This document shows positions 38,799 through 61,859 of a DNA stretch of 64,000 nucleotides, in pieces. The notes beneath the pieces were generated by a model that saw only the letters and a list, made by a program, of their open reading frames with translations, ran no database searches and was not told where the DNA came from. The DNA lies in the NCBI RefSeq assembly GCF_008367235.1, contig NZ_VTZS01000003.1, positions 62,001 to 126,000 of the forward strand. Direction: 5' to 3'. The stretch comes from Pareuzebyella sediminis. Lineage in GTDB: Bacteria > Bacteroidota > Bacteroidia > Flavobacteriales > Flavobacteriaceae. Both the position numbers and the translations under genes were made by a program. Position 1 is the stretch's first letter; each line of letters begins with the position of its first letter.

Positions 38799-38960
38799 GA
38801 ATTATAAACTCGTTTATGGCCATAAATGCCGATTAATAAATTATTATTGGGGGGAGATATTTTATGTGGATTTTAAATTTAAGAAAAATATCATGCCTGA
38901 TTCAGAAATATTACTATTAATTGTAAGACATTCAATAGCAGGAATAATTTGCTGATATTG

Positions 38961-38998
38961 AGTGTTAACTATTTTAGGTACAAAACCCTATTAACACT
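38961..38998. promoter_or_regulatory. Inverted repeat in the trlF-KAP divergent promoter region
   Basis: AGTGTTAA (38961-38968) and TTAACACT (38991-38998) form a perfect 8-bp dyad, with TAGG/CCTA inside it, 17 bp before the KAP start codon. It could be an operator for the KAP gene or a leader hairpin. The remaining gap 38799-38960 is A+T-rich with no visible gene. Confidence 0.4.
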
Positions 38999-39014
38999 TA
39001 TAAATAATTGATTG

Positions 39015-41156
39015 ATGGGCAACAAAAATGTAATCCTCAACGAAGTAGCGGTAAGGTCAAAAAGCGATGATCTTTTGAATTATTATCCTTTTGCCGAAAA
39101 AGTAAAGGAAATAATTCAAGGCTACTCCAGTAATCCTGAGCCATTGACCATCGGAATTTATGGAAAATGGGGAGTGGGCAAAACCTCATTGTTGAACTTG
39201 ATTGAGAAACACATAGAGGTGTTTCAAAAGGACAAGAAGGACAAACCTTACATAAAATTTCATTACAACCCGTGGTTATACCAGACCAAAGAGGAGATGC
39301 TCTTTGATTTCTTTACGATATTAAGCAAAAAGTTACATTATAGCGGGAATGAATACCTAAAGAAAGCTGGAGAACAAATCCTCAAATACAGTCGTTACCT
39401 AAAGTCGGTAAGGCTATCCGTTTCGGGCGGAATTCCAGGTGTTTTCAATCTAGGGGTCAAGGTTGAACCCCATGATATACTCAAGGCATTGGGAGAAGAT
39501 CTTAAGGGACAGGACAAAAGTCTTGACGAAATGAAAAAGGACATAAATTTAGCTTTACGTGATTCTGGAAAGAAAATAATCATTTTTATTGATGATGTTG
39601 ACAGGCTTGACCGTAATGAAATATATACGCTCCTAAAGCTTGTTAAAATCAATGCTGATTTTAAAAACTTGGTTTTCCTCATTTGCTTGGACCCAGAGCA
39701 TGTTGCCAAAGCAATCCATAAAAGATACGGGCCCAACATCGAATCCGGGAAATTTTTTTTGGAGAAAATCATCAACATACCATTAGAGCTTCCCTTGGTG
39801 GAGAAGGCAGACTTGGATCTGTTCATCAAGGAAAAGGTCAAGTCCGCAATTAAGAGCAGACTTATCAGAAAAGATGAGTCTGATGAATTGATCAGAAGCC
39901 TGAATGTTTCCTATTTTGGTTCACCACGGGAAGTAATCCGAATCGTCAATTCATTCTCCATCTCCCTTTATGCGATCGGTGACGAAGTAAATGCCCACGA
40001 TTTGTTTTGGATCGAATATTTAAAAGTAAAGCATCCCGAATCCTATGAAACTATAAAAAACTATGCCCGGGACCACATCTCAAACTACATATTAACCTCT
40101 GTTATTACCTTCAACAACGAGTTTGATAAAAGTAAAAGCGAAAGTGGTGTGCGGTCAATTCTAAAAGACCAAAGCGAAAAGGCCTATGATATCATTGATA
40201 AGCTATTTCCGATGGATAGAACTGGAACCGTTTACGGATATCGATCGAAAAACATCAAATCTGAAAAAGAATTGAACAAACAACTCAGGATCAACCATAT
40301 TTCCCATTTTGAGAAATACTTTTCATTCCACACCAAAGGGAAAATCTCAGAAATTAAATTCTCCACTTTAAAAAGCCATATCCAAGATGGCAATAAAGAT
40401 GGGGCTCTGACTGTTTTGAAAGATTTGCTGTCAAATTCAGATGAATATAAAGTTGTCTATCGTCTGGGTTCAGAGTTGGATGGCATGAAAACCCCGGATT
40501 ATGAAAAATATATCCCTTTTATTATTGATAATATCCAGGTTTTCAAAGAGGGACAAGGGTATTCCAATGCCATTCAGCTGATCCAAAATATTGGAGAAAA
40601 ATTGAGAACGGATGAAGCCTCTGGGAACAGAGAAATCTGTCTCAACATAGCTAAAAAACTTGACTATTACCAACTAAGTTATTTTTTGGGACGCTTACAG
40701 GAAAATCCTAATATACCGTATTTAAAAGACTTGGAATCAGTACTCATCGAAAAAGTCAGGGAGCCTGATTCACCTCTATTCTACAAACAAAGAAATGTTT
40801 CCAATATGATAATGGAAATTTGGTCAAAGCACGATAGCGGTCAATTTCAGCAATTCATTTTGGACAGCCTTTCATCCAAGGAAAATGTATTTAGTTTTAT
40901 AACAAGCTTTCCGTATCTATGGAACGACCACATACAAGGAATTTTCAAAAAAGAGGACTATACATTTTTGAAAGAACATCTAAATCTGGATATGGGCTCT
41001 ATCTACGCTAAAATAGAAGACCTGATTCCCGATAAATTCGACTTAAAGGAATTGGAGGTCAAGGCCAAAGGATGGGATGATAAGACCAATAATTCGGAAA
41101 AGCAGAATATCGATCAATTCGTCTATTGGTACCTGATGGACAAAGAAAAAGAATGA
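39015..41156 (+). CDS. KAP-family P-loop NTPase
   Basis: A 713-residue KAP NTPase: Walker A GKWGVGKT (residues 50-57), FHYNPWLYQ (KAP-typical), Walker B FIDDVDRLD (191-199) and LVFLICLD. The C-terminal half (about 400-710) is helical and family-specific. No membrane helices interrupt the NTPase domain, unlike many KAP proteins. KAP NTPases occur in defence islands and in PifA-type phage exclusion. It is monocistronic and divergent from trlF-jet. The ATG at 39015 is used; the preceding TTG is not needed. Confidence 0.88.
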   Translation: MGNKNVILNEVAVRSKSDDLLNYYPFAEKVKEIIQGYSSNPEPLTIGIYGKWGVGKTSLLNLIEKHIEVFQKDKKDKPYIKFHYNPWLYQTKEEMLFDFFTILSKKLHYSGNEYLKKAGEQILKYSRYLKSVRLSVSGGIPGVFNLGVKVEPHDILKALGEDLKGQDKSLDEMKKDINLALRDSGKKIIIFIDDVDRLDRNEIYTLLKLVKINADFKNLVFLICLDPEHVAKAIHKRYGPNIESGKFFLEKIINIPLELPLVEKADLDLFIKEKVKSAIKSRLIRKDESDELIRSLNVSYFGSPREVIRIVNSFSISLYAIGDEVNAHDLFWIEYLKVKHPESYETIKNYARDHISNYILTSVITFNNEFDKSKSESGVRSILKDQSEKAYDIIDKLFPMDRTGTVYGYRSKNIKSEKELNKQLRINHISHFEKYFSFHTKGKISEIKFSTLKSHIQDGNKDGALTVLKDLLSNSDEYKVVYRLGSELDGMKTPDYEKYIPFIIDNIQVFKEGQGYSNAIQLIQNIGEKLRTDEASGNREICLNIAKKLDYYQLSYFLGRLQENPNIPYLKDLESVLIEKVREPDSPLFYKQRNVSNMIMEIWSKHDSGQFQQFILDSLSSKENVFSFITSFPYLWNDHIQGIFKKEDYTFLKEHLNLDMGSIYAKIEDLIPDKFDLKELEVKAKGWDDKTNNSEKQNIDQFVYWYLMDKEKE

Positions 41157-41161
41157 GGTGT

Positions 41162-41824
41162 TCATTTCCTCTTATCCTTGCTCGCCCTATCAAATGCAAC
41201 CAGATTAAATAACTCCCGCATCCTTGATCTCACGCGAGTGCCATACCGTTCCTCCAGCTCCTGGGCATTGAGGTTGGTGGTGGCGTGGGTCTTGCGTTTG
41301 TCTTCAATAAAGAGTTCATGACGGGAGAGCAATATTTCACCCATGACGTTGCAGTCTTGCCCAAAGTGCCGTCCGGTGGGTTCTACACCTAGGTCATCGA
41401 AACAGAAGAATTGGGAAGTGCCATAATCTTCGATGGTCTTATAACCTATATGGTTAAAACCAAAAACAATGTTCCGGCAGGGTATGATCTCATAGGGTCG
41501 TTGATGTGGGACGATGTGTTTCATTAGTTTCATGAGGCTGGTCTTGCCACAGCCTACAGGTCCCGAGAGTAAGAGTCCTTTGTGGATATCAATGCCCATT
41601 TGGGTACAACGGGCTTTGTCCTGGATGAAGTAGAGGCTGAGTTTATATAGGATATCCCGGTCCTCTCGGTGGATTTTGAATTTTTTCCCGAATAGAAGTT
41701 TTCCCTTGGCATCAAGATAGATGAGGATTTTTTCAAAATCATAGTGGATTTCCTTGTCCTTCAGGGTGCCCAGTGGATATTGGACGGCTCCCTCGGTGAT
41801 GATATGTGGGGTATTGTACTTCAC
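41162..41824 (-). CDS. DnaC/IstB-like AAA ATPase (helicase loader-like)
   Basis: A 220-residue AAA protein: Walker A GPVGCGKT (residues 88-95), Walker B FFCFDDLG (near 140), sensor-like TTNLNAQEL and arginine finger region RYGTRVRSRMREL. This is the DnaC/IstB loader type; on the ICE it probably loads replicative helicase on the excised circle. It starts with GTG at 41824, 1 bp after the winged-helix gene, so the pair forms a replication module. The KAP gene converges 5 bp away. Confidence 0.85.
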   Translation of the reverse strand: MKYNTPHIITEGAVQYPLGTLKDKEIHYDFEKILIYLDAKGKLLFGKKFKIHREDRDILYKLSLYFIQDKARCTQMGIDIHKGLLLSGPVGCGKTSLMKLMKHIVPHQRPYEIIPCRNIVFGFNHIGYKTIEDYGTSQFFCFDDLGVEPTGRHFGQDCNVMGEILLSRHELFIEDKRKTHATTNLNAQELEERYGTRVRSRMRELFNLVAFDRASKDKRK

Positions 41825-41825
41825 G

Positions 41826-42365
41826 TTACAAAGGTTCGTTGTAGTTTTTGTGGGTCTTGGTCTTTAGGTTGTCCCGAAATGGGACACCGGCCTTCTGTTT
41901 GTTTCCGTTTTCCAAATCCTCAACATCCAAAATTTTAAAATCTGCCTGTTTGTTATTGTTTTTTTGGTTTTCCAAGGTTTGTATATGTTTGTTTATAGGT
42001 ACCACTGCTTGTCCATTGCTTGTCCTGATATTGGTACGGCTTGGGTCCACCACTTGTCCAGTACTTGTCCCAAAATCGAACATCTTGATACGGCTTCCCT
42101 TAAAAGGGTTGTGGGATGGAGTATAGACGATATAGCTCCAATGGGCGAGTTCCTTGATGCATCGATGGTAGGTGGATTTGGACCCAATCTTGGCACACTG
42201 CATGACTTCGTCCCGGTTGATAAAAAATTCCGGTTTAAAGTAGTTGGTGTTCCAGAACTGGAACAACGCCACATAAAGACTGATATGGGTTGGGTTCAGT
42301 CGGCTGTCCTTGGAGAATTGATCAAAAACCCCATTGAGATGTTTTATATAATTGACTTCTTCCAA
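41826..42365 (-). CDS. Winged-helix (DnaD/RepA N-terminal-like) replication protein
   Basis: A 179-residue protein. Residues 1-110 look like a winged-helix replication initiator domain (SRLNPTHISLYVALFQFWNTNYF, REEV-like INRDEVMQCAKIGSKSTYHRCIKEL, WSYIVYTPSHNPFKGSRI); the C-terminal 70 residues are polar and probably disordered. It is coupled with the AAA loader and the HTH gene. No ATG is available after the upstream in-frame stop, so it starts at TTG 42365, 2 bp after the HTH stop, suggesting translational coupling. Role inferred. Confidence 0.7.
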   Translation of the reverse strand: MEEVNYIKHLNGVFDQFSKDSRLNPTHISLYVALFQFWNTNYFKPEFFINRDEVMQCAKIGSKSTYHRCIKELAHWSYIVYTPSHNPFKGSRIKMFDFGTSTGQVVDPSRTNIRTSNGQAVVPINKHIQTLENQKNNNKQADFKILDVEDLENGNKQKAGVPFRDNLKTKTHKNYNEPL

Positions 42366-42367
42366 AC

Positions 42368-42646
42368 CTAGATCCGGTTATGGATTTTGTTCTGCTCCAA
42401 TACCTCCATAATTTCATGGTACTCGTAATAGAGGACCCCGCCGACCTTGGTGTAGGGGAGGGTGCCGTTGATCCGAAGGTTCTGCAATGTGCCAGGCGAG
42501 ATGCCCAGCAGTTCTCGGACCTCGTTGGATCTGAGCCATTTTTTGTTCGATTGCTTGTTTTGGTTGTTCAATAAATCCTTGATGTCCTCCAGCAGTTCGA
42601 CTTTGAACTCCATGAGGTCTTCGGTGGTAATAATGGTCGCTCCCAT
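42368..42646 (-). CDS. Excisionase-like HTH (HTH_17/MerR-type) protein
   Basis: A 92-residue protein with the HTH_17 DNA-binding pattern KKWLRSNEVRELLGISPGTL, then GTLPYTKVGGVLYYEYHEI. Such proteins act as recombination directionality factors or regulators in Bacteroidetes conjugative transposons. It follows RteC, separated by a 280-bp region with two 26-bp palindromes, and precedes the replication genes directly. Confidence 0.82.
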   Translation of the reverse strand: MGATIITTEDLMEFKVELLEDIKDLLNNQNKQSNKKWLRSNEVRELLGISPGTLQNLRINGTLPYTKVGGVLYYEYHEIMEVLEQNKIHNRI

Positions 42647-42929: not shown

Positions 42930-43769
42930 CTATTCTTCCAAGGATTCCATCCGCTGGTTTAACAGCTCGATAAGCCGATCCAGAAACCGCGTCCGACTGC
43001 TCTTCCGCGAGCGGATATCAATAAAGGTGTGATAGTAATTGCCCAGGTCCACATTGTAAAAGTACTCGAAATGTGAGGCCAGTTCCTTGATATCAACGGT
43101 ACCGCCGTTGATGCATTTGCTGGTGTGCAGGGCATATAGGAGCTCGATAAGCTCCGTTTTGCCCCCGGTCCAAAATAATTTTGATGGCTTTTCCATAGGT
43201 GTGTTCTTAGTAGGTTCCATATTGTTGTTGAGATCGTCCACTTCCTTTCTCAGGTAAACGATGAGCATGTCATAGGCCATGATGGTGGCCACAGTACCGT
43301 CCTGACAGGTGGAAAACTGGTCATCGATCAAAAAGTGAAAGGATTCCAAGGGCATGCGCAGGTCCCGATTGCCCCGGACAAAATACTGTTCGTCCATGGA
43401 CATGGCCCCACGCCTGTAATAATTATAGAATTCCAAATTATCGTTAAAGAAGGTCTGAAGCTTATCTATCTGTTGCTGGAGGTATTTGATCTGGGCTACA
43501 TCCTTTCCACGGGGCCGTTTGCTCTCAATGCTGAAAAGCTTGATGTAATAGATGAGCTTGCTAAAGATCTGGGGTTTTACATGCTTAAAAAAATAGATCT
43601 CATCGGCCTGTGTTTCAAAATCCTGGCCCACTATCTGCTTTTGCAGTTTACGGATACATTTCTCCACCAGTGCAATGCCCTTCTCCGCCTTGAAGAGAAT
43701 ATCACCGTTCCCGCTTTCCAGGGTTTCCAATTGGCCCTCAAATTCCAATAGCAACTTTTGGTATTTCAT
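42930..43769 (-). CDS. rteC: RteC-family regulator
   Basis: A 279-residue RteC protein: the typical helical N-terminal half with TQADEIYFFKHVKPQIFSKLIYYIKLF and a C-terminal winged-helix-like domain (FWTGGKTELIELLYALHTS, LASHFEYFYNVDLGNYYHTFIDIRSRK). In CTnDOT, RteC activates excision-gene transcription by binding inverted-repeat sites. Here two perfect palindromes lie just downstream, before the excisionase-like gene, which fits the same job. It is 12 bp downstream of the synthase-GNAT gene, so control may couple the two. Confidence 0.9.
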   Translation of the reverse strand: MKYQKLLLEFEGQLETLESGNGDILFKAEKGIALVEKCIRKLQKQIVGQDFETQADEIYFFKHVKPQIFSKLIYYIKLFSIESKRPRGKDVAQIKYLQQQIDKLQTFFNDNLEFYNYYRRGAMSMDEQYFVRGNRDLRMPLESFHFLIDDQFSTCQDGTVATIMAYDMLIVYLRKEVDDLNNNMEPTKNTPMEKPSKLFWTGGKTELIELLYALHTSKCINGGTVDIKELASHFEYFYNVDLGNYYHTFIDIRSRKSSRTRFLDRLIELLNQRMESLEE

Positions 43770-43781: not shown

Positions 43782-46187
43782 TTACTGCTGCCCTTCCATG
43801 ACCCCGATCATTTCCAAGATGAAATTGTCATTGGTCTGGAGATAGGCATATTTCTCATGTACCATCGCTCCCAGCTTTCTTTTTTCAAAAGAGGCGGTCA
43901 TCCCAAAATCGATTTTGGGGATTTTGATGGCAATTGCCCGTTCAATGGTTCGATATAGCAATTGACGGTAGGTCGCATAATTTTCCAATAGGTCGTAATC
44001 CATACCCACGAAGGCAGGAACATAGACATTGTTCTGATTGGTATAACAGAACATCACCCCGAGAATGATATTGGGTTCCCCGTTAGGGGTCAGTACGATA
44101 AATTCCCAAAGTTCATTATCGTTCATTTCTTCAAACAGCTTATCGGGAAATGAAAAGGTGTTCAGACCAAGGTTCCGTTTTTGCACTTCTCCAAAAAGAC
44201 GTTTGAATTCCTGTATTTGGAAAGCATTGGTCTTGGAGATGATTTCGGATTGCGTCAATTCCAAAAAGGGTTGGATGTCCTTCCGGAAATGCCTTCGGTT
44301 TCTGGAGGATAATTGTTCAATATACTTCGTCATGGAATCGACCCCCGTTAAGTCCAGGGTACAGGAGTTGGGCATCTGCACCCGCAAGAACCCATGGCCA
44401 TACAGCGTTTCATGCCAAGAGGTCTTTGCCTCAAAGTCTCGTAAAACGGTCATTTTTGCCCCGAATTGGTGTTCCATTTTTTCAAGGAGTTCCAATAGGG
44501 CATCAATGGCTTCTTTATTGGATGGATGTGATTCGTCCCAATAACGGTGGTTGCCTTCGGTGAATAAACACCCCAAGGATAGGACCATGGACGATAAATG
44601 ATATGGATTTTCTTTCCGCTCTTGTTCAATGACAGCCGATATTGATGCTTGGGCGAGCATATCATCTTTCCACGGAGAAAGGGTCATAAAGGTTACCAAG
44701 ATGGGAAAGCCGTTGGAGTCCTTTATGATCACATATCGGAACGACCAATTGTGTTCCTTTTGGGAGTTTCCTTGAAAAGCCTTTTCCAAAAATTTCAGTC
44801 CTTCCCAATCGTAGACACCTTGTCCTCCCATGTACTTGTTCCACATGGTTTTATCAACTTGATGAATAGTATCGAAAATTTCGATGGTCAGTTCGGATGA
44901 CTCTTGCGGTTTGCTTTGGGACTTGTGTTCCAATTTAAAGGCATAGAAGACCCTTTCGGCATTTGTTTGGGTGTCTTCCAGGGCTAGTGGAAAATGATAT
45001 TCCATGGCTTCTGCCAGTCCTTTGATTTCTTTCTTTTGGTTATGTCTTGAAATGGTGATTCGTACCCCGGTGTTTTTTACCGGTACTGCGGGAAAAATAC
45101 CCAAATTGACATAGTAGCCCTCACGGATCAATCGGTTCACAAAATTGTAACCGGTCTTGGGCATTCCTGTGCCAATGTAAAATACCGGTGATTCGTTTTG
45201 GTCTATTAATGGTAGCTCGGTTGTGGACAGGCATGCATTGAAATAATCAATCCGTTCCCGCAAATCTTGCTGTAGGTCATAGATCTCGGGGGAAAGATGA
45301 ATCTGCGCGGAGGCCATGGCAGCGGCCACAGAAGCGGGTTCCAATTGGGCAGAAAAGGTCAAGGGACCCCCAAAGGTCTTTATTTTATCGTATAGTTGTG
45401 GGTTGGAACAGACCAATACAGCACCACTGGCTCCAAAGGTCTTGCTCAATGTGCCGAAGAGTAGCACATTTTCCGGTAATTCCCCTAATTGGTCCAGTAC
45501 ATAACCAGTACCATTTTTACCGACCCAACTCATCCCGTGGACATCGTCAAAATAAAAATGGAGTTGTGGGTATTTTTCAGAAAGCGCCATCAATTCTGTG
45601 ACAGGGGCATAGTCCCCGTACATGGAATAGATGCCATCGGCCATATACCAGATGTGTCTTTTGGAATGTTGGTACTTCTTGATTTTGTCCTCCAACATCT
45701 CCAAATTATTGTGGCGTATCATTTCGATGGGAACACTTCGTGTCTTTAACATCTTGGCCGCATTCTGTACACTCCAATGCACCTGATGGTCCAAAATGAT
45801 TACATCATTGTCATCCACCGCGCTGGGAATGACGCCCAGATGACCGAGTGTACTGTTCTTGGTGATGACAATGGGTTGACCGTACATCTCCTTGATATAG
45901 CCTTCAAGTTCCTTATAAAGTGGATTGGAGATATAGGACTTGGAGAGTGGAAATTGAGTGCCGTATTTCTCTATGGCATTCATGGCGGCCTCCTTTAAGC
46001 GGGAATCCTGTTCCAGTCCTAAATAACCCGTGGTCCCAAAATGGTATAGTTCCCTACCGCCGACTTCTATCGTCCTTCCCGAAAAGGACTTTCCCCCGGC
46101 ATAAAGGTGCAATACCCCAGCTTGTTTTGCATCGGTGAATACTTCATGTACGGTGTTCAAAAAATTGTGGTGTTTGATCTTGGCCAT
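43782..46187 (-). CDS. Alpha-oxoamine synthase-like PLP enzyme fused to GNAT acyltransferase domain
   Basis: About 801 residues from the ATG at 46187. Residues 1-395 form a fold-type I PLP enzyme of the alpha-oxoamine synthase family (KBL/SPT/BioF): YHFGTTGYLGLEQDSRL, KNSTLGHLG, YFDDVHGMSW (Asp and His) and GTLSKTFGASG with the Schiff-base Lys. Residues about 420-801 form a GNAT/peptidoglycan-biosynthesis-type N-acyltransferase domain. Such a fusion could condense an acyl-CoA with an amino acid and then acylate the product, giving an acylated amine lipid. The substrate is not known. Tandem AraC-type sites precede it, and rteC follows after 12 bp. Confidence 0.8.
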   Translation of the reverse strand: MAKIKHHNFLNTVHEVFTDAKQAGVLHLYAGGKSFSGRTIEVGGRELYHFGTTGYLGLEQDSRLKEAAMNAIEKYGTQFPLSKSYISNPLYKELEGYIKEMYGQPIVITKNSTLGHLGVIPSAVDDNDVIILDHQVHWSVQNAAKMLKTRSVPIEMIRHNNLEMLEDKIKKYQHSKRHIWYMADGIYSMYGDYAPVTELMALSEKYPQLHFYFDDVHGMSWVGKNGTGYVLDQLGELPENVLLFGTLSKTFGASGAVLVCSNPQLYDKIKTFGGPLTFSAQLEPASVAAAMASAQIHLSPEIYDLQQDLRERIDYFNACLSTTELPLIDQNESPVFYIGTGMPKTGYNFVNRLIREGYYVNLGIFPAVPVKNTGVRITISRHNQKKEIKGLAEAMEYHFPLALEDTQTNAERVFYAFKLEHKSQSKPQESSELTIEIFDTIHQVDKTMWNKYMGGQGVYDWEGLKFLEKAFQGNSQKEHNWSFRYVIIKDSNGFPILVTFMTLSPWKDDMLAQASISAVIEQERKENPYHLSSMVLSLGCLFTEGNHRYWDESHPSNKEAIDALLELLEKMEHQFGAKMTVLRDFEAKTSWHETLYGHGFLRVQMPNSCTLDLTGVDSMTKYIEQLSSRNRRHFRKDIQPFLELTQSEIISKTNAFQIQEFKRLFGEVQKRNLGLNTFSFPDKLFEEMNDNELWEFIVLTPNGEPNIILGVMFCYTNQNNVYVPAFVGMDYDLLENYATYRQLLYRTIERAIAIKIPKIDFGMTASFEKRKLGAMVHEKYAYLQTNDNFILEMIGVMEGQQ

Positions 46188-46262
46188 TTTATTTGTTTTT
46201 ATTTGTGATAAAAAGAAACGGATTTTGTAAGCTGATAAAGCATACATATTCCAGTTAATCCT

Positions 46263-46303
46263 TTTCAGATAACAAATACTCCTTTTCGGATAACAGAAAG
46301 CCC
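46263..46303. promoter_or_regulatory. Tandem AraC-type binding sites, divergent synthase/STAS promoter
   Basis: TTTCAGATAACAAATACTCC at 46263-46282 is followed by a related half site TTTCGGATAACAGAAAGCC at 46284-46302: a direct repeat with a 21-bp period (two helical turns), the classic AraC layout. The first half site recurs exactly at 47745-47764. It stands between the divergent synthase gene and the STAS-like/AraC genes. A TAATTTTG (TAnnTTTG) box at 46347-46354 precedes the latter. Confidence 0.75.
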
Positions 46304-46385
46304 TTTATTACAAATAACTGCCCTCCAGTGAAAACTTCAATTGCAGTAATTTTGTAAATTGATTTTGCTAACCAGTTTTCCAGAG

Positions 46386-46772
46386 ATGAAAAAAACACAT
46401 GAAAACACCTTTGCCGTATATCTGTTGACCGATGATCTGTTACACATCATATATAAGAAAGTGCCTTGTATCAATGTTAAGGCAGCAGAGCTCATTGTCA
46501 AGGATCGGATGGAATTACAAGAAGGCAAAGTGATGCCTGTGCTCTGCGATATACGGGAGGTCAGGAATATCGATAAGGCCGCTAGGGACTATTTGGCACT
46601 GGAAGGTTCCCTTTGGATCAAAAAACTGGCCTTCTTGATCTATCCACCGGTTACTGACATGATCAGCGCCATTTATCTGGACACCCATTCCCAAAAGGTG
46701 CCTACACAATCTTTTACCAAAAAATCGGAGGCCTTGGCCTATTTGGGCATTAAGGAAACCGATGATAACTAA
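46386..46772 (+). CDS. STAS/SpoIIAA-like protein (DUF7793-like)
   Basis: A 128-residue protein with a compact alpha/beta pattern (FAVYLLTDDLLHIIYK, VMPVLCDIREVRNID, FLIYPPVTDMISAIYLD) resembling SpoIIAA-like STAS proteins of Bacteroidetes. STAS domains sense or bind regulators or lipids. The ATG at 46386 gives the usual start. It is 18 bp ahead of the PAS-AraC gene, so it may modulate that regulator. The family assignment is moderate. Confidence 0.65.
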   Translation: MKKTHENTFAVYLLTDDLLHIIYKKVPCINVKAAELIVKDRMELQEGKVMPVLCDIREVRNIDKAARDYLALEGSLWIKKLAFLIYPPVTDMISAIYLDTHSQKVPTQSFTKKSEALAYLGIKETDDN

Positions 46773-46790
46773 TCAATTTAATGAAAGGAT

Positions 46791-47717
46791 ATGCCGAACA
46801 GCGATGACTTTAGGGTAAAACGGATACAAAAGATGCTCTTGGAAATGGCCAAGGGCAATTTCTTCTATTCCATTGAACCCATGGACAAGAATGACAATAT
46901 CGCCTCCCTGGTGGTCATGCTGAACATGGTCAATGAGGAAATAGGGGCGGCCTTTATCCATCAAGGTTTTGCAAATGCGCACAACACCCCACAATGTGTC
47001 ATCCAACTGTCCATGATCTTAGATGGGAATGGTCAAATCGAATTGCTCACCAACGGCACCTGTTCTCTATTGTCCTATCCCCCTATGGATCTTTTCGGAA
47101 AACACATCACTGAATTCATGACGGAAAGGTCCCGGGAAAGATGGACCAAGAAGATGGCCAAACATCTGAAGCGGGAGCGGTCTGAAACGGTATTGTTCCT
47201 GGAATTCATTACGAACGATGGTCTTTTGCTGGCCAAGGATTGTCAAATATCGGTGTACCAGGCCCTGGATGGGGGTGGTCAAAAAACCCTGTTGAACTCC
47301 GTCTTCTTTTCCAAGGGGGAACCCTTTGAAACGGGGTTGCCCAAAAATAAACTCAAAGTGACCAAGGGCATCAAGGAACACAAGGTCACGTTGACCCCAG
47401 AGGACATCCAAATCATCAGGGATGTCCATGATATGATCATCAACAACTTGGACAAGGATCTCCCCACCTTAAAGGATCTTGCACATCAAGAGGGCACCAA
47501 TGAGTACAAACTGAAATATGGTTTCAAACAGATCTACGGTACGACCATTTTTAGATTTCTGATCAGGGAACGTCTTCGAATGGCTAGGACCCTCATCCAA
47601 CACAGCACCTTAACGATAAAGCAAATCATCCAAATGACAGGATTCAAGAGCAAAACACATTTTTCAAGGGCATTCAAGGACAAATATGGAATGTCTCCTA
47701 CGGATTTAAGGTTATAA
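46791..47717 (+). CDS. PAS-domain AraC-family transcriptional regulator
   Basis: A 308-residue regulator: an N-terminal helical stretch, a PAS-like sensor (CVIQLSMILDGNGQIELLTNGTCSLLSYPP, residues about 65-165), and a C-terminal AraC HTH pair (LKDLAHQEGTNEYKLKYGFKQIYGTTIFRFLIRERL..., ending KSKTHFSRAFKDKYGMSPTDLR). It likely binds the 21-bp-phased tandem sites at 46263 and 47745, controlling the synthase, itself and the mauE-like operon. The ligand is unknown. Confidence 0.88.
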   Translation: MPNSDDFRVKRIQKMLLEMAKGNFFYSIEPMDKNDNIASLVVMLNMVNEEIGAAFIHQGFANAHNTPQCVIQLSMILDGNGQIELLTNGTCSLLSYPPMDLFGKHITEFMTERSRERWTKKMAKHLKRERSETVLFLEFITNDGLLLAKDCQISVYQALDGGGQKTLLNSVFFSKGEPFETGLPKNKLKVTKGIKEHKVTLTPEDIQIIRDVHDMIINNLDKDLPTLKDLAHQEGTNEYKLKYGFKQIYGTTIFRFLIRERLRMARTLIQHSTLTIKQIIQMTGFKSKTHFSRAFKDKYGMSPTDLRL

Positions 47718-47744
47718 AACCCTTAAAATCATGTATTTACTCCG

Positions 47745-47786
47745 TTTCAGATAACAAATACTCCCTTAGAGATACATCAGACTCCC
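47745..47786 (+). promoter_or_regulatory. Tandem AraC-type binding sites upstream of the mauE-like gene
   Basis: TTTCAGATAACAAATACTCC (47745-47764) exactly matches 46263-46282, and a degenerate half site AGATACATCAGACTCC follows with the same 21-bp period. It ends 28 bp before the mauE-like start codon, a position suited to activation. Confidence 0.75.
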
Positions 47787-47813
47787 GAACTTTGTCATAT
47801 CAAATCAAATGAT

Positions 47814-48263
47814 ATGTCATTCAAAGGAATTCACTCCAAGCTTGTTACCCTCTTCAGCCTTTTGCTGACCATCCTTTTTGTTTATACAGCGGTAAGCAAA
47901 TTGGTCCATTTGGATCTCTTTCAATGGCGCTTGGAGCGGATGCCCTATATTTCCCCCTATGCCTCTTTGATTTCATGGGTCGTTCCTTTTCTGGAATTGG
48001 TCATTGCTGGCATATTGTGGTTTCCTAAATACCAAACCATGGCATTTTATGCCAGCTTTATTCTATTGGGGCTATTCACCACCTATATCATTATAGTTCT
48101 TAAATACAGTGATTCCATCCCATGTTCTTGTGGCGGGGTCATATCGGCCTTGGGATGGAAGCACCATATCCTATTGAATATCACTTTTATGGTCCTTGCC
48201 TTATTGGGGATCCTGTGGACAAAGAAACAATACAACATGCAATCACATCAAAATACTACGTAG
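47814..48263 (+). CDS. MauE/DoxX-like redox-associated membrane protein
   Basis: A 149-residue protein with four membrane helices (residues about 10-30, 47-68, 75-97, 118-136) and a SIPCSCGGVISALGW motif in the loop, as in the MauE family. MauE-like proteins shuttle thiol redox power or support disulfide formation in exported proteins. The next gene encodes a secreted protein with paired Cys residues, which would be a natural substrate. AraC-type sites precede it. Confidence 0.82.
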   Translation: MSFKGIHSKLVTLFSLLLTILFVYTAVSKLVHLDLFQWRLERMPYISPYASLISWVVPFLELVIAGILWFPKYQTMAFYASFILLGLFTTYIIIVLKYSDSIPCSCGGVISALGWKHHILLNITFMVLALLGILWTKKQYNMQSHQNTT

Positions 48264-48322
48264 TCACAGGGGAAGCCGAAAACCTATAAAAGAGTAGGCA
48301 TTAACTTTTAATACCAAGTATT

Positions 48323-48577
48323 ATGAAATCTAATTTTTTAAAACTTGTTTTACCGGCCTTCGCCATTTTGTTGGCGGTTGGCCTGGCCTTTGCAACGGAG
48401 GAAAAGGTTACTTTTCAACAAGGCCATTATTATGACACTTCAGTGCAACAATGGAAATCCATTCCAGCTGAAGCGGGTTGTGATGAGGATGGGGAATACC
48501 CTTGCCTTCATGACGGTTACCAATTGTATTCCTTGCCAAGTTTTGGGAGTACCCCTTTGGCCAAGGATGAACCTTAA
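48323..48577 (+). CDS. DUF6520-family small secreted protein
   Basis: An 84-residue protein with a signal peptide (LVLPAFAILLAVGLAFATEE) and a short mature region with two Cys (GCDEDGEYPC, then LHDGYQLY), the DUF6520 pattern common in Bacteroidetes next to MauE-like and SusCD genes. The exported peptide probably forms a disulfide or is a substrate of the adjacent transport/protease genes. It ends 21 bp before a strong terminator. Confidence 0.8.
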   Translation: MKSNFLKLVLPAFAILLAVGLAFATEEKVTFQQGHYYDTSVQQWKSIPAEAGCDEDGEYPCLHDGYQLYSLPSFGSTPLAKDEP

Positions 48578-48694: not shown

Positions 48695-50998
48695 TTACAT
48701 CCTATTGATTTTTTGCAGACATCGTTGCCAATGCGATTTAGTGGTTGTGTCCCATCGCTGTTCCAGTCCTTTTTCAATCCCCTTTTTTAAATCGATCAAT
48801 CGCCCAAGGATCAGGGCTTTCATATAATCGGAATGTGCAAAAAACCGTTGTTGGGGGTCCAATCCAGATCGTTGCTGTTCTACAATCATAATCAATTGAT
48901 CTATATAAAGGGTTTGTAGGGCCTGTCTTCTCCGGTCCACTTCGGTATACCCAGATTGCAATTCCAAAAACAGCCCTGATTGCAATTGGTCGAGATAGGT
49001 TTGGACCAAATTTTCTGAGTCAAGGCTGTACTCCATATACTCCAGTCGCTTCAAGCGAGGTGCCATAATCAGTTCCGGTAAAATCCTTTGTTGGTATTCC
49101 ATGACCTTGTCAGGAAAAGTGGAATACCTTGTTTTTTCTTCAAATTCGGGATGGGTCAACCATTTGGGTGGATCAAAGGCATTGACCAATAGAAAATCAA
49201 TTGCCTCCGATTGCTTTTTCCAAGGAATAGGGGTGTACATCTTCCCTTCATGCCCCAAAGGTTTGTAGTGAATGTCATATCCTCCGATCAGGGTCGAAAC
49301 ATGGACCATATGGTTGTACCACAATTCCATGGTCTTTTCATACAATCGACCCAAAAGCGCATTATCGTTTTGGTCTTGGGTCACCTTGGGCAAAAGGGAG
49401 ATTACCCTTTCGACATTTTTTAAGGCCAATTCGGTACTACGGACAGGATTGTTGGTTTCGACCACTTCGTTCGAAGCTGCGGGACCAAGGGTTTCGAATA
49501 TGGCGTTGTGGAAACGATACCAGGGTACAGAATCCTGCCACCGGATCATTTTTTCCAAGGCCAAGCTTTCCTGCTCCGTTGACGTATCCTCTTCAAATTC
49601 AGTATAGGCCCACATGATATTGTACCTATCGGCAGGACCCACTTTTTGAACCAAAAGTGAAGGAGAAATACTGTCCTCTGGTTGGGGAATATTCGATGGT
49701 CTCGCATAATTCATGATGCTTGGGGTATAACCCATGTTCCTGAGCCATATACTATCGTTCATTTTATCCCACGGATAGGTATATTCTCCATAGTTGGCAT
49801 CCTTAAGCCCAAAAATATGACCTGCTTCATGAGCAACTGTTACTTGGAACATGGAACCAACAATTTCATCGGGTAACGGAAATTGTTGGGCCCTTTTGTC
49901 CAATGGTGCTAGACGGACAAAGTACCTTTCCATGGCGGTCCGTTCCGAGGCTCCTATAAAGATGTCACCACGCAAAATTTCCCCGGTCCTCAAGTCAATG
50001 ATCCTTGCCACAGTGGCCCCATAATCCTCATATTCGGAACCCCTCATGTATTTTCCCATTGACCAATACACAATGTTGGAGTGGAGGCTGTGGGTCGTCC
50101 ATTCATCCAGACTGTCAACTTCTTTGACCACAAGGGCATTCTTGAAACCTGCCGCCTCAAAGGCTGGTAACCATTCCTCAATTCCTGCTTTGACATAGGG
50201 CCTCCACTTCTTGGGGACATCAGGAGAAATGATAAAGGTGATGGGTTTTACCGGAGCACTGATCTCTAGGTCCTTATGCTTCTTTTCCAAACGCCATCTG
50301 GCTATGTTGGCGAGGCTATTTCTCATATGGAAATGAATACCAGTGGTCTCCTCATCATAGAATCCCATCCGATAATCAAACCTTCTTGCCTTCATTGGCT
50401 CCGGCAACAGAGCGAATCCATAAAAGGTAGGTATGGATATTTTAGATCCTCCCTTGACCAATCCTCTTCGGACCTTGATGATCACTTCATCGGTTAGGTT
50501 TTTGGCACCCAACAACAAGGAGATTTCGGGAACCAGTTTTTCCGAAAAGCCTGGTTCCCATTCAATCATTTGTTGCAGTAAAAGATCAGTTATGTTCACT
50601 GTATAGTTTCCCGGTTTTTCCTTCCCCTTTTCACGGGGAAAGATACCGAGGATATTATCGGAAAGGGAAATGTTTGGTTGAATGGGAATGGAAATCCCTG
50701 CAGTAGAATGGATTACGGGTGCCTTCAAGAGTAATTTGTCCCCATGCAGTGACCAGACCACTTGTAAAAACAAGCGATCATTTCCGTTATCATAACGAAC
50801 AAATAGAACCGGTCTATCCAAAACCTTCTCAGGTACGTTTAGATAAACCTGATCTTGCTCCATGGTAACCGTCAAAAAGTGGTTCTCTTTTTCAAGAAAT
50901 CCGCCGTACTGACCATTTGCCAGAATTACCGAAGTATTCCTTGCAAAAGTCGTAATCGGAAGAATCGCTATACAAGCCAAAACGAGTAACCGTCCCAT
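48695..50998 (-). CDS. Zinc-dependent metalloprotease (DUF4953/DUF5117 type)
   Basis: About 767 residues from the ATG at 50998, which gives a clean signal peptide (MGRLLVLACIAILPITTFA); an earlier start at 51085, overlapping susD by 14 bp, is possible. The central HEAGHIFGLKD is a zinc-binding HExxHxxGxxD motif, with a Met-turn-like SIMNYAR about 45 residues later, as in metzincins. Such secreted Bacteroidetes proteases sit in SusCD operons and degrade or mature extracellular peptides. It is last in the susC-susD operon. Confidence 0.85.
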   Translation of the reverse strand: MGRLLVLACIAILPITTFARNTSVILANGQYGGFLEKENHFLTVTMEQDQVYLNVPEKVLDRPVLFVRYDNGNDRLFLQVVWSLHGDKLLLKAPVIHSTAGISIPIQPNISLSDNILGIFPREKGKEKPGNYTVNITDLLLQQMIEWEPGFSEKLVPEISLLLGAKNLTDEVIIKVRRGLVKGGSKISIPTFYGFALLPEPMKARRFDYRMGFYDEETTGIHFHMRNSLANIARWRLEKKHKDLEISAPVKPITFIISPDVPKKWRPYVKAGIEEWLPAFEAAGFKNALVVKEVDSLDEWTTHSLHSNIVYWSMGKYMRGSEYEDYGATVARIIDLRTGEILRGDIFIGASERTAMERYFVRLAPLDKRAQQFPLPDEIVGSMFQVTVAHEAGHIFGLKDANYGEYTYPWDKMNDSIWLRNMGYTPSIMNYARPSNIPQPEDSISPSLLVQKVGPADRYNIMWAYTEFEEDTSTEQESLALEKMIRWQDSVPWYRFHNAIFETLGPAASNEVVETNNPVRSTELALKNVERVISLLPKVTQDQNDNALLGRLYEKTMELWYNHMVHVSTLIGGYDIHYKPLGHEGKMYTPIPWKKQSEAIDFLLVNAFDPPKWLTHPEFEEKTRYSTFPDKVMEYQQRILPELIMAPRLKRLEYMEYSLDSENLVQTYLDQLQSGLFLELQSGYTEVDRRRQALQTLYIDQLIMIVEQQRSGLDPQQRFFAHSDYMKALILGRLIDLKKGIEKGLEQRWDTTTKSHWQRCLQKINRM

Positions 50999-51071
50999 GG
51001 TCAATATCAATTTGGAAAAGGTTCCATTAGAGTTAGGTTCTGGACCTAAATGCACTGCATAAACATTTTGT

Positions 51072-52511
51072 TCAATATCCATCATTTTGTGGCTTTAGAT
51101 TGGGATTGGCCTCCAACTCTGACTCTGGTATGGGCATGAGGACATCCGTTGCCTGCCAATTGGATTTCATTAGGCTCATTGTCTGGTTAGCCAAACCTGT
51201 ACGTTTGAGATCGAACCAGCGTAGCCCCTGTTCGGTAAATAGTTCTATTCTTCGTTCTTGGAGAATGGCATCCAGTAGCTCGTCCTTGGTATTGGCCGTA
51301 GATTTTGGAAGTCCAGCACGGTTTCGGATAACATTAAGGTCCGACTGCGAACCAGCGATATTGCCTAAATGGGCCCTGGCTTCAGCTCGGATCAAATACT
51401 GTTCCGCCAAACGGAACAGAATGGAATACTCCAAGGATTCGGATTCGTTGATATCGGCTTTGTACTTTTGTGCAAAGAATAACTTAATGGTGTTGTCCAA
51501 ATCCGACATACTACCCACCCAATAAACCCTTCTCAGGTCATTGGTTTCAAAAGCCATCAAGAAATCGTCTGTCAAAGCATAAGACTGTCCCGGAATGGAC
51601 TTGATGATCAACTGTTCCCCTTCCAAGGTGTTCAAAGGAAATTCGGTATCTGCCTTAAGCTGCCAAATCGTTTCCGGAGAGGCTTTAACGAAAACCTTGT
51701 CCAAATCGTCTTCCAAGCCATAGGAGGTAATAAGGTCAGAGGCCAAGGATTCCGCCATCTCCCAGTCCTCAATATATTGGTACATCCTCGCCAATAATGC
51801 CTTGGCCACGTCTCTATCTGCGTAAACCCTTTCAGTTGAAGTAAAATCATTGCCATCCAACGCTGTTGCTGACTCCGTTAAATCTGTAATGACATTTTGA
51901 TAAACTTCTGATGCAGGAGTTCGGGATACCTTGCCATTCTCCAAATAATTGGTAGAAGTGATGTAAGGTATGTTCCCAAAGGCAAATACCAATTGACTGT
52001 GCAGATAAGCACGGATGAACAATGCCTGCCCAATGAACCTGTTTTTTTCACTTATAGTCAATGCCTCTGATTCACCCACACCCCGGATTATATCGTTGGC
52101 TCCATAAATCAGATGGTAGGCCTGGCGCCACCAATTCGTTGTAATGCCGTTTGCAGCCGGTACATCATTCTGATACAATTGGATTAAATCGGCACTAAAG
52201 CCATAATAATCCAATTCGTCCCCATAAATGCCCAACACGGGTGTCACTCCCGTTGTCCCGGACACGATTCCCTCTTCACGCATACCAAAATAGAGATTGG
52301 AAAGTGCGGATTCCACCGTGGACGCGTTGTCAAACACGGTTTCTGATACCAAGTTGTTCTTAGGGGGGTCTACATCCACAAAATCAGTACATCCCACTAC
52401 GGTTAGAGCCAGTATAAAAAATTGGGCCACTCGTTTCCTCCATTGATGGGCACCATCTAGAACTGTGCATGGGAGGTGTATTTTATAGGTTATATGTTTA
52501 AATCGTTTCAT
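51072..52511 (-). CDS. SusD/RagB-family outer-membrane lipoprotein
   Basis: A 479-residue SusD-like lipoprotein. After a long basic N-terminus, the lipobox ALTVVGC leads to the mature Cys near residue 41. The SusD fold shows NNLVSETVFDNASTVESALSNLY, ALLARMYQYIEDWEMAESLASDLI and LDAILQERRIELFTEQGLRWFDLKR. It caps the SusC pore and captures nutrient, here probably peptides. 15 bp after susC. Confidence 0.93.
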   Translation of the reverse strand: MKRFKHITYKIHLPCTVLDGAHQWRKRVAQFFILALTVVGCTDFVDVDPPKNNLVSETVFDNASTVESALSNLYFGMREEGIVSGTTGVTPVLGIYGDELDYYGFSADLIQLYQNDVPAANGITTNWWRQAYHLIYGANDIIRGVGESEALTISEKNRFIGQALFIRAYLHSQLVFAFGNIPYITSTNYLENGKVSRTPASEVYQNVITDLTESATALDGNDFTSTERVYADRDVAKALLARMYQYIEDWEMAESLASDLITSYGLEDDLDKVFVKASPETIWQLKADTEFPLNTLEGEQLIIKSIPGQSYALTDDFLMAFETNDLRRVYWVGSMSDLDNTIKLFFAQKYKADINESESLEYSILFRLAEQYLIRAEARAHLGNIAGSQSDLNVIRNRAGLPKSTANTKDELLDAILQERRIELFTEQGLRWFDLKRTGLANQTMSLMKSNWQATDVLMPIPESELEANPNLKPQNDGY

Positions 52512-52526: not shown

Positions 52527-55500
52527 TTAAAAACTGAGTTGGAATCCAAGGGTTATCTGACGCAATGACGGCAATCGGGTACTGGTTGGCTGCTCTGGGT
52601 CAGGTCCCTTATAGCCTGTAATGGTCCAGAGATTCTGCCCTTGTAGGTATACATCGATATCAAGGCCTTCCTGCAATTTAGGGATGCTATAATTCAGTGA
52701 AATGTTTCGTAACCGAACAAAGGAGGCATCCGAAACCGAGGCATTGCTTTGCTGTTGGAAATTGTCCAGCCCGCCTGTGGGTACCAAGCCACTATAGGCT
52801 CGTGAGAAGCTTGTTATGTCCCCAGGTTGTCGCCAACGATCATATAGGTCCATGGGTATATTCCCCTTACGACCCGGTATAACACCGAATTGAAGTGTAT
52901 TGAAGGTCCTTTGTTTTTTGAACTGGAAAAAGAAATCCAACGTCAGGTTTCCAAAATTTAAGGTATTGCCCAATCCCCCATAAAACTTAGGGGCCAGGTC
53001 CTCGACCCATTCCTTGTCTTCCTGGCTATTGATATTCCCATCATCGTTATAATCCTCAAACATATAAACCCCTGTTTCAGGATCAACTCCAAGGGAATGG
53101 TATAATTTTACAATGGATAGGGGCTTACCTATTATATATCTATTGGCAAACGTGGAGTTCTCCAATCCATCAAAATCCACTAATCTATTTTTGGGAACCG
53201 TCAGATTAATAATCGTGGACCACTTGAATTTTTTGGATTCTATATTTACGGTTCTTAGGTCCAATTCAAATCCTGTATTCTCTACTATGGCATCGAAATT
53301 TCCGGTCAGTTCTGAAAACCCCGTAGTGGCTGCCAAAGGAATTCCCACCAATTGATTGGATGAGCGGTTGCGGTACCAAGAGGCATTGAGCAATAATTTG
53401 TCCTTGAAGAAGCCTAGCTCCAAGGCCGCCTCCAATTTCCTGTTCTCTTCCCATCCGAACAAGGGATTGAAAAGCCCTGTGGGTTCTATGATGGTTACTC
53501 CATTATAATCGTTCCCTGTAACGGAATAGGTGTCCAAGAACCGATAATCACCAATATTGTCACTCCCTGTTGTTCCGTAGCTTGTCCTCAATTTACCATA
53601 GCTCAATACAGAACCGTCGCCCATAAAGTGTTCCTCTGAAAAAAGCCACGCTATCCCGACGGCACAAAAGTTTCCAAACTGTTTGCCCGGTCCAAACCTG
53701 GATGACCCATCCCGACGTCCCGTCAGGTTAATGAAATACTTATCCAAGAATTTAAGGTTTACCCGTCCAAACACAGCGTTGTAGTTGTATTCACTGTCCG
53801 CATTGGAAAGGATATCCAAATTTTCGGCGGCCCCAATGTTAAAGATCAGTTCATTGTTAGGAAAGCCGCGCCCCCGCAAAGCGAGCTGTTCCGTGGTCTC
53901 CTGTTGAAAGGTCGCGCCCAAAAGAATATCCAAGGAAAATGGGCTCCATTGTTTGTTCCAGTTGAGTTGTGGTTCCACAATCCATGATTCCCGCTTGGAA
54001 GTATTGGTCATAAGGTAGGAGTAGTTTTGGGGGGTAAGACCATATTGTGGATTTCTTGCCGAGGAAGGCATGGCCCGTTGGGCATCCAGCCGATAGCTGG
54101 TAAAGCCCATACTGGATTTAAATTCCAAGTTGTTAAAGACTTTATAGGATACCACTGCATTGGATATAAGGGTATTGGATAGTACCATATATTTCTCCTC
54201 CAGTGCAGCCATGGGGTTTTCCCATGTATTACCTTCCCAGTTGATATTTCCTTCCGCATCATATAGAGCAGGAGCATTGGGTTCCAATGAATATGCCTTA
54301 GGACTAAAGTCCGTGCTGGGTAAAAAATTGTCTTCTTTGGTATAGGAAGTTGTTAGATTGACACTAAACTTTCCATCTTTGGAATGATGGTTCAAGCTAC
54401 TGTTCAAACTCGCTCCTTTGTATCTAAAATCCCCAGGGAATACTGTTGTCTCTTTTTGATAGGCCCCGCTGATCAAAAATTGGGTTCGTTCACTCCCACC
54501 CGATACGGAAAATTGGGCATTGTTCCTGTAGGCTGTACCACCTATCAGTTCTTTTTGCCAATCGGTATACCTGTCTTGGTCCCATAGGGTCACATCAGGC
54601 CAAAAGAAGTCCAACCCTGGATTGCCCAATAAATTGTCCACTCCATCATTTATGATTCCTTCCCTTCGAAGCTCTAAATATTCCTTTGTTTTCATCAGGT
54701 CCAGAAAATGGGACACTTGACCTAGGGATGTACTCAATTGGGCATCGAATCTGGTCTTTCCCGCCTTGCCTTTTTTAGTGGTGATAAGGACTACACCATT
54801 GGCTCCGCGGGAACCATAAATGGCAGTGGCATCGGCATCCTTCAGGACCTCGATGCTCTCAATATCATTGGGATTTATGGCATTCAAGGGACTGATGTTG
54901 CCCCCGACAATCTGGTTTGACAAACGTGCGACTCCCATAGATTGGGAACTAAAGGACACCCCGTCTACTATGAATAGTGGATTTGCAGCCCCATTGAGGA
55001 AGTTCCTGCCTCGGATCTCAATGGAGAATCCTCCTCCAGGCACTCCAGTATCTTGGACAATATTCACTCCCGACAAATGTCCCTGCATGGCCGCCAAGGG
55101 ATTGGCCACGGGTTGTTTTTCTATGATGCCCGCTTTGATGGTGGCAATGTTCCCAGTGCGTTCCTTTTCGGAAACACTATAATAGCCTGCATTGAGCACC
55201 ACTTCTCCCAATTGGGTGACATCTTCTTCCAGTTGTACATTGATAACGCTTCTTCCATCCATACGGACATTTAGAGATTCGAAGCCCACTATGGAAAAAA
55301 CCAGTATGTCATTTGGATTTGCTTGAATGTTATAGGTGCCGTCCATGTCGGAAATGGTGCCTCTATTCGTGGACTCTACTACAATATTGACTCCAGCAAG
55401 GGGTTCTCCTGTGCTATCGGTCACGGTGCCGGAAATGGTGGACTGTGGTGGCTCCAAGATATTGCCCGCTTGCATTTGTTGGGCCAGTAGGGGAGATATA

Positions 55501-56341: not shown

Positions 56342-56710
56342 ATGAGGAAATACAGCGATGTTGAAATAGAATTAATTAATATTCAAATTGGCTGTCTTAT
56401 AAGATTGGCCAGATTGAGAAAAGGGCTTTCTCAGCTTGATTTGGGACACCAAATAGATTCGAATTCAACCCTTGTGGGTAGAATTGAAAGAGCGGAGGGC
56501 AAAACAAGTTGGGAAAAAATTTTCATGTTAAGTAAACAATTAGATGTTAACTTTTACGATCTTTTTGAATTAAAGAAAAAGGATGTTTTGCTATCAATTG
56601 TTGATGAAGCGTTTCAATTGGAGAATAAACTTACTCAAGAGAAGAGGGAATTCTATGATTCTCTTAAAATAAAAATTGAGAAAACTTATAGTGACTTTAA
56701 TAGGGAATAA
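56342..56710 (+). CDS. XRE-family transcriptional regulator
   Basis: A 122-residue protein: residues 10-70 are an XRE HTH (IRLARLRKGLSQLDLGHQI, STLVGRIERAEGKTSWEKIFMLSKQL), followed by a charged helical tail. A perfect 12-bp dyad precedes it. It is 153 bp ahead of the RES gene and may be the antitoxin/regulator of that gene, or control the whole retron cluster. The DNA-binding role is secure. Confidence 0.85.
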   Translation: MRKYSDVEIELINIQIGCLIRLARLRKGLSQLDLGHQIDSNSTLVGRIERAEGKTSWEKIFMLSKQLDVNFYDLFELKKKDVLLSIVDEAFQLENKLTQEKREFYDSLKIKIEKTYSDFNRE

Positions 56711-56817
56711 AATTCAAATTAACCACTCGCATATATTTCCCCAAGTATATTTTATACTAGAATTTTCTTATATTTAATTCTCACACTCCCCCCATAGATT
56801 TATTGAATTTTAAGAAA

Positions 56818-56855: not shown

Positions 56856-56863
56856 CAACGAAA

Positions 56864-57853: not shown

Positions 57854-57872
57854 TGAAATTAGTTGTACAAAA

Positions 57873-59038: not shown

Positions 59039-59040
59039 AG

Positions 59041-61835: not shown

Positions 61836-61859
61836 GCATAAATTTGGAAATATTCCAAG

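Follow-up and report, generated by a model that had tools for sequence, protein, structure and literature searches.

A synthase-GNAT enzyme encoded next to rteC in Flavobacteriaceae integrative and conjugative elements: a possible link between small-molecule production and element transfer

Why should a biosynthetic enzyme be encoded directly against rteC, the gene of a likely excision activator, on a mobile element? To our knowledge, the triggers of transfer of integrative and conjugative elements (ICEs) in marine and environmental Bacteroidota are little known. The question is raised by a 64,000-nt stretch of Pareuzebyella sediminis DNA (the window), which covers most of an ICE of about 70.7 kb and in which an α-oxoamine synthase fused to a GNAT acyltransferase is encoded ahead of rteC, with genes for a DUF7793 protein and a PAS-AraC regulator running divergently. 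We tentatively read these genes as a regulated four-gene unit, in which an enzyme-rteC operon would yield both an acylated aminoketone and the ICE activator, and put the probability of this reading at roughly 45%. An enzyme that is inherited, and apparently transcribed, with a likely excision activator would allow a connection between a small molecule and horizontal gene transfer to be tested directly.

The enzyme gene (positions 43782–46187, minus strand) encodes 801 amino acids beginning with MAKIKHHN; Pfam, alignment and fold place the α-oxoamine synthase at about residues 1–410 and a tandem-GNAT acyltransferase of FemX fold at about residues 432–801. An earlier annotation by a model, made from the letters and open reading frames (the sequence-only reading), had started this protein at 46247, 20 codons too early; we moved the start to 46187 because all 29 aligned sequences share M1-A2-K3, while the preceding part differs. 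The gene of the RteC-family regulator (42930–43769, minus strand; Pfam E 2.2e-82) begins 12 bp downstream on the same strand. Divergent to the enzyme, the plus strand carries the DUF7793 protein (46386–46772; Pfam E 5.1e-39) and the PAS-AraC transcription regulator (46791–47717; Pfam), followed by genes for a MauE and a DUF6520 protein. The sequence-only reading had recognized the synthase-GNAT, STAS (DUF7793), MauE, DUF6520 and rteC genes, and Pfam finds all of them where they had been placed. It had overlooked the PAS-AraC gene, so that the stretch from the enzyme to DUF6520 holds five genes and not four. While its observation is confirmed, its interpretation of the genes is partly supported, as set out below.

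We collected 74 related loci of named genomes through peptide words of the query, a sample biased to close relatives, with many loci from Allomuricauda/Flagellimonas. DUF7793 is encoded within 800 bp of the enzyme and divergent to it in all 74; 73 also have PAS-AraC (in the remaining locus, L043, the contig stops at this point), and RteC follows directly downstream, at most 500 bp away and on the enzyme strand, in 72. Of 73 gaps between enzyme and RteC (window included), measured with mechanical starts, 68 span −4 to 35 bp and the other five 82–406 bp. Between AraC and RteC, the related loci share no conserved gene beyond these. By tblastn, MauE was counted in 70 of the 74 loci, SusD in 67, SusC in 65 and DUF6520 in 41, and clustering detected DUF6520 in 60 of 75 loci (window counted). 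This gene order recurs far above chance, and the cluster is conserved on other ICEs, a check that the sequence-only reading had proposed.

Of 299 genomes of the family, 33 carry relatives of the enzyme at E ≤1e-60, as do 9 of the 395 genomes in a phylum sample; eight of these nine matches (own genome included) belong to the same family, and the ninth is a synthase-only gene from another family. Where genomes were searched for both proteins, 16 of 20 enzyme copies adjoin rteC, as read by eye from the tables. Eight assemblies contain two or three enzyme copies each, and for 14 of these 17 copies the nearest copy lies in another assembly and not in the same genome (in one case by a margin of only 0.1%), a pattern that a mobile element would produce.

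When pairwise identities are compared across the related loci, whose pairs are not independent of each other, Spearman correlations divide the region into three blocks. The cassette of AraC, DUF7793, enzyme and RteC shows correlations of 0.69–0.84, SusC, SusD, DUF6520 and MauE form a second block (0.47–0.68), and HTH17, Rep and AAA, encoded downstream of rteC, form a third (0.60–0.76); between blocks, correlations are 0.18–0.51. Over all loci, enzyme-RteC reaches 0.82, compared to 0.32 for RteC-HTH17, 0.28 for AraC-MauE and 0.22 for RteC-MauE, and each of four block contrasts stayed above zero in every one of 200 random 60% subsamples. Among pairs with an enzyme identity of 72–95%, AraC-DUF7793 (0.77) and AraC-RteC (0.68) remain high, and the SusCD block correlates at 0.07–0.35 with the four cassette genes (0.07–0.32 with enzyme or RteC). 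The separation of the cassette from MauE and DUF6520 is firm, both over all loci and among close relatives.

We also built an RteC tree of 68 rows, comprising 35 enzyme-linked proteins chosen from the 75 loci and 33 selected others, two of them identical; one row labelled "other" (L216) lacks upstream sequence. In this tree, 33 of the 35 enzyme-linked RteCs form a single clade (Shimodaira-Hasegawa-like approximate likelihood ratio test [SH-aLRT] 99), while the remaining two group with RteCs of enzyme-less DUF7793-AraC loci. The enzyme label changes twice on the tree, versus a mean of 22.9 changes after shuffling. The tie to ICE transfer that the sequence-only reading had drawn from the position of rteC is thus stronger than it had claimed, given the close coupling to rteC, the single clade and the identities that go together when all loci are compared.

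Operator-like direct repeats with a 21-bp step lie in the divergent promoter region of the enzyme and DUF7793 genes (46255–46313, plus strand), and a matching third copy precedes the MauE gene (47737–47774, plus strand). The 12-base core occurs ten times in the window with at most one mismatch, versus 2.3 expected; three of its four exact copies are the operator-like repeats, and one lies within the SusD gene (51322). In the 58 of 72 loci that passed a length filter, the best 17-mer common to the enzyme and MauE promoter regions, which in some loci lies elsewhere, scores at least 14 in 40 cases, versus 6 for shuffled and 4 for reverse-complemented controls. The mean score is 14.2 for own pairs, 12.4 for pairs whose AraC proteins are less than 45% identical and 12.0 for shuffles, and the own pair exceeds the mean of the divergent pairs in 51 of the 58 loci. 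Enzyme loci without rteC carry such words as well, with scores of 17 (L153), 14 (L154), 16 (L155) and 17 (L157), the top of 20 shuffles being 14, 14, 13 and 14, respectively. Together, the matching repeats in the two regions suggest that a single regulator per locus acts on both the enzyme and the MauE promoters, and they support the co-regulation proposed in the sequence-only reading.

As to the two proteins encoded on the other side of the divergent promoter, DUF7793 is, as judged by its predicted structure, of STAS/SpoIIAA fold: the best of five AlphaFold2 models has a predicted local distance difference test score (pLDDT) of 86.5 (64.1 for the worst), and Foldseek matches it to 2q3l (E 1.8e-5), 4xs5 (E 3.5e-4) and 1thn (template modeling [TM] scores 0.68/0.76 at E 3.1e-3). 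In 25 aligned PAS-AraC members, HTH_18 was detected in all and PAS_9 (E up to 0.01) in 24. The PAS domain has a mean identity of 43%, and its variation is correlated with that of the GNAT half at 0.76.

What would the enzyme make? Pfam finds an Aminotran_1_2 domain (E 4.6e-25) in its first half and Acetyltransf_6 (E 4.4e-6) in its second. In the synthase half, K249, D214, H217 and H137 are invariant in all 29 aligned sequences and align with identical letters of serine palmitoyltransferase (SPT); we take them to be the lysine that holds the pyridoxal phosphate (PLP) cofactor and the active-site aspartate and histidines. The enzyme shares such a conserved Lys, Asp and His with the PLP-dependent α-oxoamine synthases BioF, KBL, SPT and CqsA and with PRK07505, but differs from them in its fusion to a tandem GNAT and in scoring under the cut-offs of all 11 NCBIfam models matched, including those of SPT and 8-amino-7-oxononanoate synthase. 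The best of these models is PRK07505, a hypothetical-protein subfamily (271 bits, cut-off 342), with 165 bits for bioF (cut-off 426), 149 for SPT (cut-off 640) and 72 for the CqsA type (cut-off 428). Solved structures similar in sequence to this half include SPT, cysteate fatty acyltransferase and CqsA.

The GNAT assignment of the sequence-only reading stands, and can be refined to a tandem GNAT with FemX fold. An AlphaFold2 model of this half, based on 29 sequences (mean pLDDT 90.8), adopts a tandem-GNAT fold, whose best PDB matches are 1xf8, 7z5y and 1xe4 at 14–15% identity, with Weissella FemX (1xf8) at the top (E 2.9e-14, TM 0.55/0.60, 14% identity). The fold is thus like that of FemX/Fem-like transferases, while the fusion to a PLP synthase sets the present protein apart; Foldseek also matches the fold to lipid-aminoacylating MprF domains and N-myristoyltransferases. 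Canonical GNATs that use coenzyme A (CoA) carry the motif Q/R-x-x-G-x-G/A in their acyl-CoA loop. The motif is absent in 24 of 29 sequences, including that of the window, and appears at three differing places in the other five; therefore, the donor may be other than acyl-CoA.

The GNAT half (mean identity 56%) varies more than the synthase half (79%), and ratios of nonsynonymous to synonymous substitution rates (dN/dS), taken from five pairs with the window in which several dS values exceed 1 and are near saturation, are 0.10–0.14 and 0.03–0.05, respectively. As judged from these ratios, the enzyme is under purifying selection. It is expected to join an amino acid to an acyl thioester, and its FemX-like half would then acylate or aminoacylate the product, which is probably a small modified-amino-acid molecule.

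Relatives outside the collected loci include distant synthase-GNAT fusions (33–34% identity) and a synthase-only protein (37%) in unrelated contexts (L149, L150, L151), so that the fused family extends beyond the ICE. The GNAT half also has a standalone relative (24% identical), which is encoded on a Nostoc plasmid (L148, NZ_CP040277.1) in a cluster with an NOS oxygenase, a desaturase, a class III aminotransferase and a DevC/DevA-type exporter. Searched against plasmids, the whole enzyme matched 639 records, and among the matches listed none had a single place covering 80% of it; two plasmid contexts, one in Pantoea with ATP-grasp genes and one in Rhizobium, gave no product identity. A synthase and a GNAT are known from one natural-product pathway in two cases, which resemble the present enzyme in this pairing: alaremycin is made with the synthase AlmA and the GNAT AlmB, encoded by separate genes, and in SxtA of the saxitoxin pathway the two are fused in a different domain order and in a polyketide context. 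In the open-licence PubMed Central (PMC) literature, we found no description of a synthase-FemX enzyme family and no paper combining α-oxoamine synthase, GNAT and fusion, and alaremycin was not found among the matches listed.

We suggest that Flavobacteriaceae ICEs carry a unit in which DUF7793 (STAS) and PAS-AraC genes lie on one strand and the synthase-GNAT enzyme, followed by rteC, lies divergently on the other. PAS-AraC would bind the direct repeats in the divergent promoter as well as those before the MauE-DUF6520 genes, and, when active, would turn on a single transcript carrying enzyme and RteC. The enzyme would join an amino acid and an acyl thioester to an α-aminoketone, the amine of which would then be acylated or aminoacylated by the FemX-like domain, while RteC would activate excision and transfer genes of its host element, as in CTnDOT. 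Production of the molecule would thereby be coupled to ICE activation, and the molecule may help decide when the element moves.

CTnDOT has a tyrosine integrase, TraG, TraM and DUF4138, as found here. On exposure to tetracycline, rteC of CTnDOT is activated by RteB, and RteC controls the genes for excision and transfer (PMC1976400). The likeness to CTnDOT/CTnERL-type elements (tetQ-rteA-rteB, rteC) also lies in RteC itself and in an rteC under a regulated switch; the difference is that rteC is accompanied here by a PAS-AraC/STAS pair and a biosynthetic enzyme, whereas in CTnDOT RteB activates rteC under tetracycline (PMC1976400). At the rteC locus, the pair takes the place of RteA/RteB, and the insertion of the present ICE in tRNA-Asp is another difference. 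By analogy with CTnDOT, a stimulus would be coupled to transfer through an inducible unit at rteC.

Could the molecule itself be that stimulus? In such a self-signalling ICE, the acylated aminoketone would be diffusible and act as the ligand of PAS-AraC, which drives the enzyme-rteC operon, giving a loop that resembles LuxI/LuxR but consists of different components. VqmA, a Vibrio regulator, carries a PAS domain. VqmA is reported to be the cytoplasmic regulator that senses 3,5-dimethylpyrazin-2-ol (DPO), and CqsA, the Vibrio synthase of cholera autoinducer 1 (CAI-1), makes an autoinducer (PMC6451090). CqsA resembles the synthase half of the enzyme in sequence; Vibrio CqsA and VqmA belong to separate circuits, whereas the synthase and PAS regulator here are divergent neighbors of correlated inheritance. 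If the ICE were self-signalling, the element would sense its own copies among neighbors and time its excision, and the faster-evolving GNAT half and PAS domain would set element-specific dialects. We consider this extension unlikely; as judged by sequence, the molecule may be a signal, such as the link from cell state to transfer proposed in the sequence-only reading, or an antibiotic, or have another role.

Several observations weigh against a dedicated enzyme-rteC unit. Physical linkage inflates identity correlations, and in pairs with an enzyme identity of 72–95%, enzyme-RteC falls to 0.47, next to 0.56 for enzyme-HTH17 and 0.51 for RteC-HTH17; the block limit behind rteC, clear over all loci, vanishes among close relatives and is old, not recent. 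The RteC tree is a quick tree with many long branches, and the label "other cargo" is clustered on it as well (5 changes versus 20.1 after shuffling). The PAS-AraC protein of the window scores under Pfam's curated cut-off for PAS_9. Two of the 74 loci (L063, L067) lack an adjacent RteC, and in five loci (L152–L155, L157) with enzyme, DUF7793 and AraC, the 20 kb fetched contain no RteC; the 4 of 20 enzyme copies without adjacent rteC are all among these five. Conversely, the enzyme is missing from L188–L190, which have DUF7793, AraC and RteC, and two of these three also lack HTH17-Rep-AAA; at L156 the enzyme copy is split over two frames, so that the enzyme is dispensable to the switch. In L191–L196, two-component genes stand in its place. 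Hence, rteC needs neither the enzyme nor the PAS-AraC regulator, and the cassette needs no rteC. In L188–L190, the operator word scores 13, 15 and 15 (top of 20 shuffles: 14, 15 and 13), and thus beats all shuffles in L190 only, ties the highest in L189 and is lower in L188. Furthermore, in 22 of 24 further selected rteC loci (L204–L227) rteC is immediately preceded by a same-strand gene; of the two RteC matches in L214, one has such a gene and one does not, and L216 starts with rteC.

Since unrelated same-strand genes precede rteC at most of the other loci seen, a general slot for cargo may be the explanation. The enzyme would then make a fitness metabolite (antibiotic, siderophore-like or protective) from a common slot upstream of rteC, with shared transcription as its only link to transfer. 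Of 30 rteC loci returned with DNA, eight have the enzyme upstream (the window's own included), two a SusCD block with two-component genes (L191, L195) and 19 other genes, and one starts at the contig end; the occurrence of the cassette without rteC and the Nostoc relative beside NOS-oxygenase, desaturase and aminotransferase genes also fit. However, unlike freely exchanged cargo, the enzyme is tied mostly to a single RteC clade and keeps the same regulator, and the lack of any additional conserved gene between AraC and RteC speaks against a cargo pathway as well. We regard this explanation as a real, if doubtful, possibility.

The acylated-amine lipid favored by the sequence-only reading found no specific support. 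An acylated membrane amino-lipid (sphingolipid-, sulfonolipid- or aminolipid-like) would agree with SPT and cysteate fatty acyltransferase among the similar structures, and with MprF domains and N-myristoyltransferases among the fold matches. Yet the three SPT models reach 115–158 bits against cut-offs of 500–670, the host genome contains four further synthase-like genes, and with no other conserved gene between AraC and RteC, the remaining lipid steps would need the host. A lipid product is improbable, and we set the assignment aside as unproven because the lipid-synthase models stay under cut-off. The other proposal of that reading, a single pathway of enzyme, MauE and Cys-containing peptide, was rejected after the block analysis. 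Joined with SusCD, such a pathway might yield a modified secreted peptide and its uptake, the genes being neighbors in most of the 74 loci and operator-like repeats being common to the enzyme and MauE promoters; but MauE and DUF6520 follow the separate SusCD block, their inheritance correlates little with that of the cassette, whether all loci or close relatives alone are compared, and the block occurs with rteC and two-component genes in place of the enzyme (L191–L196) or with no rteC in the fetched stretch (L197–L203). This leaves a single pathway very unlikely, and the regulated enzyme-rteC unit as the reading we prefer.

The SusCD block comprises the MauE-family membrane redox protein (47814–48263, plus strand; Pfam E 8.6e-30), the small DUF6520 protein with a signal-like leader and two Cys after it (48323–48577, plus strand; Pfam E 4.3e-14) and, on the minus strand and likewise by Pfam, a met-zincin DUF4953 protein (48695–51085), a SusD-like lipoprotein (51072–52511) and a SusC-like TonB-dependent transporter (52527–55559). 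Its hydrolases or thioredoxin-like proteins differ among loci (met-zincin, S9 peptidase, M16 peptidase or TlpA-like). The SusC-SusD-peptidase-DUF6520-MauE block is exchangeable, being found beside rteC with DUF7793-AraC or with a TPR-histidine kinase and response regulators (L188–L203). By eye, genes by SusC in L198, L200 and L202 resemble ECF-sigma/FecR, and L198 also has a short enzyme-like fragment. In DUF6520 of the window and 59 relatives, the leader has a mean identity of 0.52, versus 0.25 for the remainder, and 32 of these 60 proteins have two Cys and 28 have four; they look like diversifying secreted peptides. The open-licence PMC literature yielded no paper on DUF6520 and none on NVEALA. 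Downstream of rteC, the third block (41162–42646, minus strand) encodes an HTH_17/excisionase-like protein of 92 residues, an unassigned 179-residue protein called Rep for convenience, and an AAA-like ATPase of 220 residues.

The tyrosine integrase and attachment repeats expected of a CTnDOT-like ICE are present. At the right end, the integrase (60374–61642, minus strand; Pfam) adjoins tRNA-Asp (61859–61933, minus strand), the 3′ end of which contains a 23-nt attachment repeat (61858–61880); an identical second copy about 8.8 kb beyond the window (G000:C14:53177-53199) marks the left end. From these repeats, we infer the extent of about 70.7 kb and the insertion in tRNA-Asp. Tra genes of Bacteroidota type (TraM, DUF4138, TraG P-loop) lie at 21.8–28 kb of the window. 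The ICE also contains a probable type III-A retron defence system (56342–60226), with RT_III-A (E 3.6e-150) and PRTase_III-A (E 2.5e-92). A four-gene set at 29787–35976, perhaps Wadjet-like, includes a MukB/JetC-like protein (PADLOC JetC E 8.5e-8; Pfam MukB under cut-off), its other three genes having no PADLOC match, and genes of similar sizes stand downstream of AAA in L204 and L205. A 939-residue AAA protein (PADLOC Ppl, E 5.4e-24) and a KAP NTPase (PifA, E 7e-63), encoded at 35979–41156, are further possible defence genes.

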